Source: Lachnospira sp.
GTDB lineage: Bacteria > Bacillota > Clostridia > Lachnospirales > Lachnospiraceae
Length of the DNA stretch: 48,779 nt
Assembly: GCA_017621205.1 (NCBI GenBank)
Contig: JAGATQ010000026.1
Span: forward strand, 1 to 48,779
Reading direction: 5' to 3'
The translations under genes were made by a program, and so were the position numbers. The stretch's first letter is position 1, and every line of letters begins with the position of its first letter. The notes under the pieces are model-generated. The model searched no databases, had not been told where the DNA came from, and worked only from the letters and a program-made list of their open reading frames with translations. Positions 642 through 31,049 of this stretch are shown here, one piece after another.

Positions 642-786
642 GTAATTGCGAAACTCGTAGTTGTTAGACAAGATAGTCATACTATTATATAAATTTACGC
701 CTTTGTACTTTGCGAAGCAAAGACAACGAAGTAAATTTATATAATAGTATGACTATCGTATCAGCAATTTACCATTTCACAATTAC
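642..786 (+). repeat. Palindromic leader element, copy 1
   Basis: The 145-bp element has imperfect terminal inverted repeats (GTAATTGCG at 642, CACAATTAC at the end). An inner perfect 27-bp stem begins GATAGTCATAC and closes GTATGACTATC. At its tip is a smaller hairpin, CTTTGC-GAA-GCAAAG. A second copy lies at 29899-30042. Three base pairs of the main stem differ between copies and all three are compensated. It is either a small non-autonomous mobile element (MITE-like) or a structured leader RNA. Confidence 0.85.
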
Positions 787-2655: not shown

Positions 2656-3030
2656 ATGAAGTTAGCAATTAATTCGCAGAGCAAGCTTGCAATTTATGAA
2701 CAGATTGTGGAGCAGATAAAGAATGAGATTATTTTACATAATATTGCACAGGGGGATATGTTGCCTTCCATCCGTTCATTGGCACGGGAGCTTCGTATTA
2801 GCGTGATTACTACAAAGCATGCTTATGAGGAGCTGTTAAAGGAGGGATTGATTTATTCCAAGGCAGGCAAGGGTTTTTATGTAGCAGAACAAAATAGGGA
2901 TTTGCTTCGGGAGAAAAAGATGCAGCAAATTGAAGCCGCAATGAGTGAAGTAATTGTTGCTGCTAAGGGTACAGGTCTTAGCAAGGAAGAAACGAAGGAT
3001 ATGTTGTTATTATTATGGGAGGAAGAGTAA
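2656..3030 (+). CDS. GntR-family transcriptional regulator (YtrA subfamily)
   Basis: This 124-residue protein has a winged helix-turn-helix at residues 10-75, with the GntR signature GDMLPSIRSLARELRIS and the wing AGKGFYV. The short C-terminal tail (about 45 residues) lacks the FadR or HutC effector domains, which is diagnostic of the YtrA subfamily. Such regulators usually repress their own ABC operon and are relieved by cell-envelope stress. It sits third in the operon it probably controls. The dyads at 551-633 are candidate binding sites. Stop TAA at 3028-3030 is followed by the next start after only two bases. Confidence 0.9.
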   Translation: MKLAINSQSKLAIYEQIVEQIKNEIILHNIAQGDMLPSIRSLARELRISVITTKHAYEELLKEGLIYSKAGKGFYVAEQNRDLLREKKMQQIEAAMSEVIVAAKGTGLSKEETKDMLLLLWEEE

Positions 3031-3032
3031 TT

Positions 3033-4481
3033 ATGAGTAATGTTTTAGATGTTTGTAATGTAACAATAGAGTGTGGATTTTTTTATATGAGGGATGTATC
3101 TTTTTCTATAAAAAAAGGTTATATTACAGGATTAGTAGGAAGAGAGGGAAGCGGTAAGACAATTCTTCTCAGGGCAATTTGTAATGCGGTAGAGTTAGAA
3201 GCCGGAACAATTAAGATGTTTGGAAGGGACAGCGTAGAGGAGAATGTTGCTAATAAACAAGAACTTGGAATTGTAATGGAGGATCTCAATTATTTTGAGA
3301 ATAGTTTTTCTATCTGGGAAAATGTGGATATGCTGGCTCCACTATATCGTGATTGGGATGATGAAATATTAAATTATTATTTGAAGAAGTATGGAATTAT
3401 AACGGGAACAGAAACAGAGTCGGAAAAGTATGGAGATGCAAAACGGACATTAGATACTTATTCAAGGGGGGAAAAAGCAAGAATACGTTTGGCCTTTGCA
3501 TTGGCACATAAGCCAAGGCTGTTGCTTCTGGATGAACCATCATCATTTTTAGACCCCATATTCAGGCGGGAGTTTCTGGAGGATTTGCAGGAGCTGATTG
3601 ATTGCCCGTACTGGCTGAGGGATGCAGATGAAGATGAGCGAAAAGAGAAGGCAGTAGCAGTGATTTTATGCACGCATACGACCTCGGAGATTGACCGTGT
3701 GGCGGATTATGTTCTTCTGCTGGAAAAAGGAGCTTTAGTTGCAGCTGGGGAACGGGATGAGTTGTTTAAAAAGTATGGGGTTAGTAATACGAAGGAACTG
3801 GTGTTAAAAATTACCGGCAGACCAGATGGCCTTATTTTTCAAGAGCAGGAGTTACATAGGAATAAGAGGATGATGAGGAAGCCGCAGCGAGGTAAAGACC
3901 GGTTCCGGCTTGATAGGAAGGCAGTGCCATCTAATGTTGAAGGACTAAAGGCTTGTGAAAGGATTATTTATAAACATGCCAAGGCAGGCAAAATGATTAT
4001 TGGAGTGAGTTTTGTAGTATATCTGCTTTTAATAGGTATGAGTGTATTTTTACATGATGTATTAAATAATAATTATTGGAACGTTGTATGGTGTGTGGCA
4101 TGTATATTAATTGGTGTAATAAATGTACAATATTTATCAACTTATACAAAAATTGGAAAGGATGAATTAAAGGAACTTATGCCATATCTGCCTTTTAATA
4201 TTGCAGATATGAAGGTTTGTCTTAACGCACAGAGAAAACGATTGCTGAGATTCTGGCTTGCGGTACAGAGTGTGTTTGCTGTGGTGATAGGTATTATTAA
4301 TGTAATAAAGGGAGGACAGCTTCTCGTGGGATGGATGCTTGGGATGCTGCTTGGCGGTGTTATTATTACCTTGTATTCGGGCCATTGTGAGATGCTGCAG
4401 TTAAAAAACTGGTGGGGGTCCTTGTCAAGGGAGCTGTTTGTACTATTTGTGCTTTTGCTGCTTGTGGTAGCATTCTTGTAA
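3033..4481 (+). CDS. ABC transporter ATPase fused to C-terminal membrane domain
   Basis: Residues 1-240 form an ABC ATPase: Walker A GREGSGKT (36-43), signature SRGEK (144-148), Walker B LLLLDEP (around 163-169) and a CTHTT switch histidine. Residues about 320-482 hold four to five membrane helices, so ATPase and permease domains are on one chain. The start was set at ATG 3033, not at the in-frame ATG 3015, because GGGAGG at 3017-3022 is then a well-placed ribosome binding site. The ATPase-then-membrane order is opposite to that of most fused half-transporters (membrane first). Length is 482 residues. The helices resemble those of a small ABC-2 permease; the substrate is unknown. Confidence 0.8.
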   Translation: MSNVLDVCNVTIECGFFYMRDVSFSIKKGYITGLVGREGSGKTILLRAICNAVELEAGTIKMFGRDSVEENVANKQELGIVMEDLNYFENSFSIWENVDMLAPLYRDWDDEILNYYLKKYGIITGTETESEKYGDAKRTLDTYSRGEKARIRLAFALAHKPRLLLLDEPSSFLDPIFRREFLEDLQELIDCPYWLRDADEDERKEKAVAVILCTHTTSEIDRVADYVLLLEKGALVAAGERDELFKKYGVSNTKELVLKITGRPDGLIFQEQELHRNKRMMRKPQRGKDRFRLDRKAVPSNVEGLKACERIIYKHAKAGKMIIGVSFVVYLLLIGMSVFLHDVLNNNYWNVVWCVACILIGVINVQYLSTYTKIGKDELKELMPYLPFNIADMKVCLNAQRKRLLRFWLAVQSVFAVVIGIINVIKGGQLLVGWMLGMLLGGVIITLYSGHCEMLQLKNWWGSLSRELFVLFVLLLLVVAFL

Positions 4482-4593
4482 GAATATGCTGCTCTATATA
4501 ACGAATATGATGGTGTGCCAGATGCTTGTTTTAACAAATGATTAATAGTATAATAAGGAGCAACACTATACGTTCTGGTAGGAGGACAAGGGT

Positions 4594-5493
4594 ATGAGGG
4601 AGAAACTGGAGGAGCTGTTATGTTGTAGTGTAAGCCGGTATTTATATGTGGGCGTGGCTGTTATCATAACTGGATTTGCCTTCCTGATTAGTGGAATAAA
4701 AGGCGGCCCGTTATTTCCATTATTTGCAGTAATTGCAATCATTGTTATATCGATTGGAGCGGGTGTGATTGTGTTTTTGTTTCTGCCGGTTTATAGGAGT
4801 GAGCAGAAACAACGGGTGAATGGTGTTCATCAGTATATAGGCGCCGTGATTTATGATGCTTCCGACCCGGATGCTACCCCAAAGACAAGTATAGATAATG
4901 TTTTGCCGGAGCTTTCATTAAGTATCGGGACGCTTGATAAGGATGGGCAGCTGATGAAGACGCTATCACCACAGGAAAGCGTTGCATTAGAAACTCTTTT
5001 TAGCACCACAGCTTCTAGTCCTTATGGAAGTATATTGCATCCTGAGAATCCTAAGCCGGTCAATTATGGAAGGACGATGGACAGGGAGCGTGAGGAGCCC
5101 GTAGAATCAGAGGATATGGTATCTGAAGCTTCTGTCTTAGATGCGACCCTCATGCAATCTTTGTCCGTTAAGGAACAGGCAGCGTTGGGAGAGCTATTAA
5201 GTGTAAAGGAAACAAATACCTATGAGAGTATATTACATCCTAAGAACCCGAAGCCGGTGAATTATGGAAGAAGGATGGAGAAGGAAGACGATGCATCTAC
5301 GGAACCGATTGATAATCCCCTTGTTCATAGCGGTATAGATGAGACACTTATGCAATCTATGTCTCTTAAGGAACAGGCAGCACTGGGAGCTCTTTTAAAT
5401 GCGAAGGATACTGCTTCCTATGAGAGTGTGCTGCATCCTAAGAACCCGAAACCAGTCAATTATGGAAGAATGATGGATGGGGAGGGGGAATAG
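4594..5493 (+). CDS. Membrane protein with three NPKPVNYGR repeats, unknown function
   Basis: Two membrane helices (about residues 18-35 and 42-66) are followed by a ~230-residue hydrophilic tail. The tail contains three copies of a ~40-residue unit of the form LS-x-x-E-x-x-AL-x-x-L followed by YxSxLHPxNPKPVNYGR, at about residues 122-162, 187-228 and 258-297. The unit centres are spaced about 65-70 residues apart with acidic linkers. I do not recognise the repeat. The gene lies 112 bp after the fused ABC gene and 1 bp before the next gene. The tail is probably cytoplasmic because a basic stretch follows helix 2, but the topology is not certain. GTAGGAGGACA precedes ATG 4594. Confidence 0.7.
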   Translation: MREKLEELLCCSVSRYLYVGVAVIITGFAFLISGIKGGPLFPLFAVIAIIVISIGAGVIVFLFLPVYRSEQKQRVNGVHQYIGAVIYDASDPDATPKTSIDNVLPELSLSIGTLDKDGQLMKTLSPQESVALETLFSTTASSPYGSILHPENPKPVNYGRTMDREREEPVESEDMVSEASVLDATLMQSLSVKEQAALGELLSVKETNTYESILHPKNPKPVNYGRRMEKEDDASTEPIDNPLVHSGIDETLMQSMSLKEQAALGALLNAKDTASYESVLHPKNPKPVNYGRMMDGEGE

Positions 5494-29686: not shown

Positions 29687-29851
29687 CTAGTGTACTGTCT
29701 CATTCATATTTGGCAAAACAGCTTGCGTGAATTCCCATCTGCTGCGTTAGCTTCAATCGACGATGCCACCGCATCGCCTCATTCAGCCGCCTTGTAGAGT
29801 GTAAATTCATTCTGCGTCGTTTAGCTGAAAATGAACGAGACAGTACACTAG
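29687..29851. mobile_element. MITE-like element with 17-bp terminal inverted repeats
   Basis: TGTACTGTCTCATTCAT (29691) and the reverse complement of ATGAACGAGACAGTACA (29831-29847) match at 16 of 17 positions. CTAG flanks both ends (29687-29690, 29848-29851) as a possible 4-bp target duplication; because CTAG is itself palindromic this is not certain. The ends start TGTACTG, as in IS3-family elements. The 157-bp body has no transposase and is more GC-rich than its flanks. Confidence 0.75.
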
Positions 29852-29875: not shown

Positions 29876-29898
29876 CGTTTCATAATTAGTTCAATAGA

Positions 29899-30042
29899 CA
29901 ATTGCGAAACTCCTGGTTGTTAGACAAGATAGCCATAATACTATATAAATTTACGCCTTTGTACTTTGCGTAGCAAAGACAACGAAGTAAATTTATATAG
30001 TATTATGGCTATCGTATCAGCAATTAATAGTTTCACAATTAC
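29899..30042 (+). repeat. Palindromic leader element, copy 2
   Basis: Second copy of the element at 642, in the same orientation relative to its downstream gene. Its 27-bp stem begins GATAGCCATAATAC and closes GTATTATGGCTATC; three pairs differ from copy 1 and each change is compensated. The apical hairpin is CTTTGC-GTA-GCAAAG, with the loop base changed. It ends 32 nt before the bioB start codon. Confidence 0.85.
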
Positions 30043-30074
30043 CTATTAATTCAAAAGCAGAAGGAGACCAAATT

Positions 30075-31049
30075 ATGAACCAGAGAATAAAAGAGAAAAA
30101 AGAAAAAGTATTAAACGAAGAATTGCTTACCAAGGAGGAAGCAATGGAGCTTATAGAGACTCCTCTGGAGGAGCTTTGCAATGCTGCCGATGAGATTCGC
30201 AAACATTTTTGTGGAAATGCTTTTGATATCTGTACAATTATAAACGGAAAGAGCGGGCGTTGTTCGGAAGATTGTAAGTATTGTGCGCAATCCTCCTGTT
30301 ACCACGCAGCAATAGAGACCTACCCCCTCAAGGATACCAAAGAGATTGTCAGTCAGGCACGTTACAATAAGGAGCGGGGTGTGCTTCGCTATTCGATTGT
30401 AACATCGGGGAGAGCCTTGTCGGATGCGGAGGTTGATAAGGTGTGTGACAGTATACGGGCGGTAAAAAAAGAAACAGATATTGATGTTTGTGTATCCTTT
30501 GGATTGCTCAATGAAGAGCAGTACCGTAGGGTGAAAGCGGCGGGGGCGAGCCGGGTACATAATAATCTGGAATCCTCCCGCAGGTTTTTTGAATCAGTTT
30601 GTACGACCCACACCTACGATGAAAAAATAGCAGCGTTAAAAGCGGCGAAGGCAGCGGGCTTAAGTGTTTGCAGCGGTGGTATCATGGGGCTGGGGGAGAC
30701 AATGGAGGACAGGATTGATTTGGCGATAACGGTTCGGGAGCTTTCTGTGCGTTCCATTCCTGTTAACATGTTAAACCCGATTCCGGGAACGCCCTATGAG
30801 AATAATCCGGTTCTTACAATAGAGGAAATGTGTCGTATCATTGCTATTTTCCGTTTTCTGGTGCCGGATGCCTCGATACGGTTAGCCGGGGGAAGAGGGC
30901 TGATGGAGGATAAGGGGGAAGCCTGTTTTTGTTCCGGAGCGAACGCAGCCATATCCGGGGATATGCTTACCACTGCGGGTTATACCATAGAAAGTGATAT
31001 GGCAATGTTAAGGCGTTTGGGCTATGAGCCCAGGCTTTGGGAGCGGTGA
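30075..31049 (+). CDS. bioB: Biotin synthase
   Basis: A 324-residue radical-SAM enzyme that inserts sulfur into dethiobiotin. The [4Fe-4S]/SAM cysteines are Cys63, Cys67 and Cys70 (CSEDCKYC), followed by AQSS; CSGGIMGLGET and NMLNPIPGTP are further BioB motifs, and RLAGGRG near the C-terminus is conserved. AGGAG precedes ATG 30075. No other biotin genes are adjacent, so this organism may import dethiobiotin or carry the others elsewhere. The palindromic leader element lies just upstream. Confidence 0.96.
   Translation: MNQRIKEKKEKVLNEELLTKEEAMELIETPLEELCNAADEIRKHFCGNAFDICTIINGKSGRCSEDCKYCAQSSCYHAAIETYPLKDTKEIVSQARYNKERGVLRYSIVTSGRALSDAEVDKVCDSIRAVKKETDIDVCVSFGLLNEEQYRRVKAAGASRVHNNLESSRRFFESVCTTHTYDEKIAALKAAKAAGLSVCSGGIMGLGETMEDRIDLAITVRELSVRSIPVNMLNPIPGTPYENNPVLTIEEMCRIIAIFRFLVPDASIRLAGGRGLMEDKGEACFCSGANAAISGDMLTTAGYTIESDMAMLRRLGYEPRLWER

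Follow-up and report, generated by a model that had tools for sequence, protein, structure and literature searches.

A palindromic miniature element of Lachnospira and its likely IS1182-like mobiliser lie predominantly just upstream of Shine-Dalgarno sequences

The window analysed here, a 48,779-nt stretch of DNA from Lachnospira sp., carries two copies of a palindromic element, each lying on the plus strand shortly ahead of a protein-coding gene. The initial annotation had placed them at 642-786 and 29899-30042 and read them as copies of one element. Both are present and are the same element, yet each extends somewhat further than proposed, spanning 151 bp at 639-789 (copy 1) and 29895-30045 (copy 2), with the ends TAGRYAATTGYGAAAC / GTTTCRCAATTRYCTA.

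Copy 1, which was aligned with 43 other copies, matches 14 and 15 of the 16 end positions, its left end bearing TTTGT in place of TAGRY, and has no convincing target duplication (direct-repeat score 3). Its left stem arm (672-698) pairs at 27 of 27 positions with the right arm (731-757); the apical module between them (699-730) consists of GCCTTTGTA, a hairpin and ACAACGAA. A Shine-Dalgarno (SD)-like AAAGGAG follows at 805-811, with the first G of its GGAG at 808, 19 nt past the element, and the open reading frame behind it encodes a 367-aa ABC-type ATPase (818-1921; PF00005, 64.9 bits). By eye, a promoter-like TTGACA-17-TATAAT arrangement can be discerned upstream of copy 1 (536-564), which would make its transcription likely. 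All of these features, and those of copy 2, are on the plus strand.

Copy 2 matches both ends at 16 of 16 positions and is flanked by an imperfect direct repeat only (11/13). Its arms (29928-29954 and 29987-30013) likewise form 27 of 27 pairs, enclosing an apical module (29955-29986). An SD-like GAAGGAG lies at 30060-30066, the first G of its GGAG at 30063 being 18 nt past the element, ahead of an open reading frame for a 324-aa biotin-synthase-like radical SAM protein (30075-31049; PF04055, PF06968), whose bioB relatives within the genus are 45-48% identical. Just upstream of copy 2 sits a second palindrome (29687-29851) with 33-nt inverted arms, 85% complementary, and ends CTAGTGTACTGTCTCATTCAT; a similar end recurs in the right flank of another copy of the element (C12:91129).

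Overall, 17 of the 151 positions distinguish the two copies. As the initial annotation had noted, the 27-bp stem is perfect in both, and its three differences are all compensated on the opposite arm: from copy 1 to copy 2, stem position 6 changes from T-A to C-G, position 11 from C-G to A-T and position 14 from T-A to C-G. Predicted single-strand folds are far more stable than those of shuffled sequences (z of -11.65, -13.20 and -13.01), and the long stem with its conserved apex is predicted to fold on the plus strand as a self-contained rod.

Plain nucleotide and covariance-model searches, which the initial annotation had proposed for related genomes, both returned many copies. In the window's own genome, the DNA search, scoring the best 40 of 107 candidates, gave at least 77 matches on both strands; a covariance model derived from 58 cores, scoring the best 150 of 2359, gave at least 148, again on both strands. 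Merged by hand, the latter 148 matches place the hairpin core at no fewer than 79 distinct positions in that genome. At 49 of these 79, both ends agree with TAGRYAATTGYGAAAC at 13 or more of 16 positions, and all placement counts given below for the element refer to these 49 two-ended copies.

Other genomes were searched as well. A family-wide covariance search matched at least three of 397 genomes, under strict filters and with the best 11 candidates per genome considered, so that misses are likely; one of the three (G014) is unconvincing by its folds. A further search found the core in a genome that the family-wide one had missed (G001, the assembly of Lachnospiraceae MAG SUG1358), and a covariance search of 20 genomes, mostly rich in the element's ends, matched two. 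The apex pattern occurred in 54 stretches across named genomes, 14 of them in Lachnospiraceae MAG SUG1358 and the remaining 40 judged from their folds to be chance, and it also matched nine viral contigs. Some cores depart from the standard architecture. In Lachnospiraceae MAG SUG1358, two (L043:1475-1561 and L082) are chimeric, an unrelated palindromic stretch starting GTGCGCTTTCTCACTAAATTC replacing the left half of the hairpin up to the apex. Two others (L158; G000:C5:17808 and 19543) lack recognisable ends and are both followed by CAACAAGGTTTGCAGCACAGATAG, and for this reason may sit within a larger repeat.

Stem pairing is clearly maintained, by selection, by correction of one arm from the other, or by both. 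An alignment of 58 cores, 57 of them distinct, has 2109 cells, of which 91.4% pair, compared with 82.2 +/- 0.4% in shuffles, and 27 of the 37 pairs show changes on both sides, as against 11-16 when the partner columns were slid. Pairs were then counted in the 76 of 79 cores that are 87 nt long: all 27 are Watson-Crick in 25 of them, and 53 contain two or fewer other pairs. Uncompensated stem changes, which the initial annotation had named as the observation that would speak against selection on pairing, are thus few. In 66 of the 76, both flanks of the apical hairpin (GCCTTTGTA and ACAACGAA) are exact, so that conservation is higher at the apex than in the stem sequence. Comparing stem covariation with loop conservation, as had also been suggested, shows a strongly covarying stem beneath an apex whose flanks are exact in most cores.

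These patterns could reflect a structured leader RNA, that is, a cis-acting fold regulating the gene behind it, with the SD-adjacent copies as the functional ones; the strong covariation and the exact apex flanks are what such an RNA would lead one to expect. Raw counts of strand-specific pairs also favour the plus strand. Tandem G.A/A.G pairs and C-G-closed GNA loops are stable on the plus strand and not on its complement, and tandem G.A/A.G replaces TT/AA in the stems of nine of the 76 cores, the same replacement also occurring in some of the apical hairpins and within the sister genome. With the two cores that exceed six mismatches set aside, G.U-type mismatches outnumbered A.C-type ones by 41 to 14 cells (p = 0.0004). 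Counted as distinct combinations of position and type, however, they stand at 17 against 12 (p = 0.46), and we accordingly rejected the raw excess as proof of selection on RNA. Furthermore, the G.U:A.C ratio is alike whether copies are sense (22:4) or antisense (10:3; p = 0.67, 54 copies), which argues against a leader RNA, as does the lack of any Rfam 15 match at gathering score in the window; four related loci matched only below their gathering scores.

Correction of one arm by the other, through hairpin or template-switch repair, would account for the stem alone and is compatible with the interpretation of the whole element that we put forward below. Compensated changes are more often of transversion than of transition type (37 against 22), near to free exchange of pairs, which fits templating or saturation; templating would need no G.U intermediate. 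Eight long hairpins in one genome of another genus (L225, L165, L228, L168, L229-L232) show a similar picture, in that their stems vary widely, whole stems differing between copies, yet are almost fully paired. On the other hand, correction should remove the tandem G.A/A.G pairs seen in the stems, the apical hairpins and the sister genome, and it leaves the higher conservation of the apex flanks unexplained. Between the alternatives named in the initial annotation, selection on pairing and arm correction, the evidence points both ways, the tandem pairs speaking against correction in its simple form; we regard arm correction as a serious possibility that falls a little short of an even chance.

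The eight hairpins of the other genus are of interest in a second respect. By reading, their ends differ from those of the Lachnospira element, and most of their apices start GCGCCTT and end ACGAAG, close to the GCGCCTTTGTA...ACAACGAAG of the latter. Finding a similar apex between other ends suggests that the apical module predates the ends with which it travels, or can be separated from them.

The initial annotation could not tell a miniature inverted-repeat transposable element (MITE) from a structured RNA. The element is a MITE. It is short (151 bp) and carries no transposase gene, neither window copy being overlapped by an open reading frame of 100 aa or more; it has terminal inverted repeats, as seen in the 49 of 79 copies just described; its copies include some with 11-14 bp target duplications; and an autonomous relative with the same ends, an IS1182-like element, exists in other genera of the family. 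The check for target duplications, likewise proposed at the outset, was positive for part of the set: perfect duplications of 11-14 bp (score of 11 or more), for example ATGTATAACATAC, CTAATAACAAGCAA and TAATAGATTTAT, flank seven of the 49 two-ended copies and none of the shuffled pairings, the signal being weaker or absent in the rest; 41 of the 49, copy 1 included, score below 10.

The ends are not confined to this MITE. With up to two mismatches allowed, the window's genome contains 142 + 137 instances of the end pattern, compared with 26 + 21 of a reversed control, an excess which implies that other short elements share these ends. Twelve such elements without the hairpin core, 41-273 bp long, were identified in this genome. 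Across the family, 16 of 397 genomes (the window's own included) hold 20 or more end matches at one mismatch or fewer, with a maximum of 84 + 82 and control values of 0-3. Another type of MITE, some 206-273 bp long, combines the same ends with a different, longer internal hairpin (L113:2513-2720, L118:1904-2114, L123:816-1088) and is also found in another genus (L200-L205). A candidate 1.4-kb autonomous element (L135) was discarded as two chance end matches flanking ordinary genes.

The autonomous relative is an insertion sequence (IS) of 1744-1745 bp that encodes a 485-aa transposase between ends of the MITE type and is present in six copies in one Lachnospiraceae genome. Its distal end starts TAGGTAATTGCGAAACTCG, like many left ends of the MITE, and its transposase-5' end reads TAGGCGTTTGCGAAACGCC or close to it. 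Transposase matches at E <=1e-60 occur in 32 of the 397 family genomes; among 72,556 plasmid records, two match at E <=1e-40, those of Roseburia sp. 831b and Butyrivibrio proteoclasticus B316. Seven full-length transposases align end to end, the other six being 68-89% identical to the first. In the window's own genome, which is 94% complete, the IS was not found, so the partner is deduced from other genera. No PF01609 transposase was detected there at E 0.001 either, which is a weak test because the true partner itself scores just under the cut-off of that model.

With respect to classification, the transposase matches PF05598 at 53.6 bits, above the cut-off of 23.1, and PF01609 at 22 bits, narrowly below the cut-off of 23, which leaves it outside the definition of IS4/IS231, elements whose duplications measure 10-13 bp. 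The nearest NCBI model is IS1182 (NF033551), matched at 81.8 bits and hence below its cut-off of 270; we therefore call the element IS1182-like rather than a member of the IS1182 family. The replacement of palindromes without target duplication that is reported for IS1272, and is a feature of some members of that family, is not what we observed, as direct repeats with a score of 10 or more flank 11 of the 19 IS copies with both flanks available, compared with none of 890 shuffled pairings. A search of solved structures returned one match, at E 0.095, to another kind of protein. Sharing its ends with the MITE, the IS1182-like insertion sequence is the likely mobiliser of the latter. In two places, IS copies are arranged as tandem pairs about one target-duplication length apart (L188:1391-3134 with the preceding IS copy; L265:1079-2844 and 2859-4624), as if a second insertion had reused the same site.

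Both window copies end 18-19 nt before an SD-like GGAG, and this placement proved widespread. We applied one SD score to all sets and compared them with 6401 intergenic window positions, a null drawn solely from the window's genome, whereas the IS copies come from other genomes. Under a strict rule (SD at 16-22 nt), 25 of 49 MITE copies and 15 of 21 IS copies qualify, as against 1.3% of the null positions; under a loose rule (11-24 nt), the numbers rise to 38 of 49 and 20 of 21, as against 6.9%, with 11 MITE copies failing. The other short elements with these ends behave similarly under the loose rule (10 of 12 in the window's genome; five of seven and four of six in two other genera, one nested pair being counted twice in the last set). 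A crude four-letter SD rule applied 10-24 nt to either side was satisfied by 43 of 49 MITE copies; the contrast is smaller here, as four more distant windows gave 11-24 of 49. In the genome with six IS copies, eight hairpins whose ends are of another kind gave no instance of an outward AAGGAG or AGGAGG within 160-nt flanks (0/8).

The IS set was assembled by examining the ends of 35 loci, 16 of which were left out of the placement counts: the second copy of a tandem pair (L208), six loci without an end pair (L242, L247, L253, L258, L260, L261) and nine with four or more mismatches over implausible ends (L212, L246, L250, L251, L252, L255, L256, L262, L263), at least eight of the nine having 5-6 tallied mismatches. 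Five divergent loci with 3-5 mismatches (L245, L249, L254, L257, L259) were kept since by eye, and thus as a matter of judgement, they have the same A/B end pair. The set of 21 includes the two plasmid copies, whose ends were set by hand.

Placement of the IS is both tight and polar. In 18 of 19 copies the distance to the SD G is 16-22 nt, and in 21 of 21 the better SD is the one at the transposase-5' end (18 of 19 when a wider window was scored). The exception (L257) has an SD at the far end, 31 nt away, in the wider window, its best SD in the narrower window lying 18 nt from the other end. Across 14 IS copies, the distance to the SD varies less than that to the start codon (s.d. 1.41 against 2.13); across 43 MITE copies, the two hardly differ (4.09 against 4.28). 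MITE copies are themselves oriented, with the SD to the right in 32, to the left in 11 and unclear in six of the 49 (p = 0.002). Gene starts called by a simple longest-ORF method, which brings errors into these distances, lie 23-43 nt from the right-hand end in 34 of 48 cases and 28-43 nt from the left-hand end in 12 of 39.

In terms of position, then, the term leader element used in the initial annotation is apt; a function as leader RNA does not follow from the placement. Such a function would be in line with the sense orientation of 32 of the 43 assignable MITE copies, yet the IS, too, points towards the SD, which accounts for the bias, and for that reason we rejected orientation as proof that the sense RNA is functional. 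Moreover, the same placement is seen for a protein-coding IS and for short elements that lack this apex. On this evidence, together with the mismatch counts and the Rfam result above, we regard a regulatory leader RNA as very unlikely.

Alternatively, insertion might occur anywhere, the SD-adjacent copies being merely those that were tolerated and kept. Insertions at AGGAG-like tracts inside genes would be harmful and lost, so that a target rule would be seen through selection, and a MITE 5' of the SD does leave the gene intact. Other intergenic positions should be just as tolerable, however, and only the small null fraction given above fits the loose rule obeyed by nearly all IS and most MITE copies. 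A 1.7-kb IS inserted 5' of an SD would presumably separate the gene from its promoter, and mere survival would hardly yield the narrow range of IS distances or their uniform polarity. We consider survivor bias unlikely as the source of the pattern.

The shared placement of a protein-coding IS, a hairpin MITE and short elements lacking the hairpin instead makes target choice, and not leader function, the most likely explanation. We thus hold it to be quite probable that the element is a MITE with IS1182-like ends and the IS1182-like element its likely mobiliser, both being situated about 20 nt 5' of the SD most likely through site choice by the transposase complex. Under this interpretation, the complex would read the AAAGGAGG tract, or something bound there, and join the element to an AT-rich segment, roughly 12 bp long, immediately 5' of that tract. 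An asymmetric target signal is likely given the uniform polarity of the IS, and the SD tract is the obvious candidate. With the SD and the start codon preserved, translation of the gene would still be possible; the element itself would become part of the leader RNA, lying in sense orientation roughly three times out of four. Retention of the rod fold might make the insertion near-silent in the mRNA, or the folded strand might be bound during mobility; this is the weakest step of the scheme. More generally, we lean towards the view that an IS1182-like clade and its MITEs are addressed to ribosome-binding sites, the SD tract being recognised, as DNA or via the transcription or translation complex, and insertion occurring in fixed polarity about 20 bp upstream with the gene left intact.

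Several known elements resemble those described here in part. IS1272, of the IS1182 family, likewise has terminal inverted repeats of about 16 bp and, according to the accessible text of PMC5678879, has been reported to replace inverted-repeat targets with no target duplication; the partner IS differs from it in its direct repeats of 10-14 bp and its SD-adjacent placement. The MITE-like bcr1-bcr3 of the Bacillus cereus group often reside in UTRs and operon spacers as well, but occur in other organisms, and a fixed pre-SD position is not mentioned in the accessible sections of PMC3446304. ERIC and Correia/NEMIS are also short, palindromic and MITE-like, and the available portion of PMC2229807 describes them as transcribed together with their neighbours, with presumed effects on mRNA stability or on cleavage by RNase III; their ends, given in its Table 1 as measuring 7 and 24 bp and carrying a TA motif, differ in sequence from the present ones, and that portion mentions no SD rule. 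REP sequences, too, are numerous short intergenic palindromes but measure 20-40 bp (PMC3733652, in its accessible part), compared with the 151 bp, inverted ends and target duplications of the present MITE. For Amoebophilus, IS elements close to start codons are discussed in the accessible text of PMC3196728, which contains no SD target rule. Our literature search, whose scope excluded most subscription papers and ISfinder, found no IS placed systematically beside SD sequences.

MITEs and IS elements are common; placement beside the SD is the most interesting result and was unexpected. If the proposal is true, these Lachnospiraceae elements would follow a target rule that spares genes and makes new 5' leaders out of insertions. 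It would then become directly testable by what means a DDE-type transposase locates a short translation signal, and the copies would provide many natural cases of the same hairpin standing before different genes.
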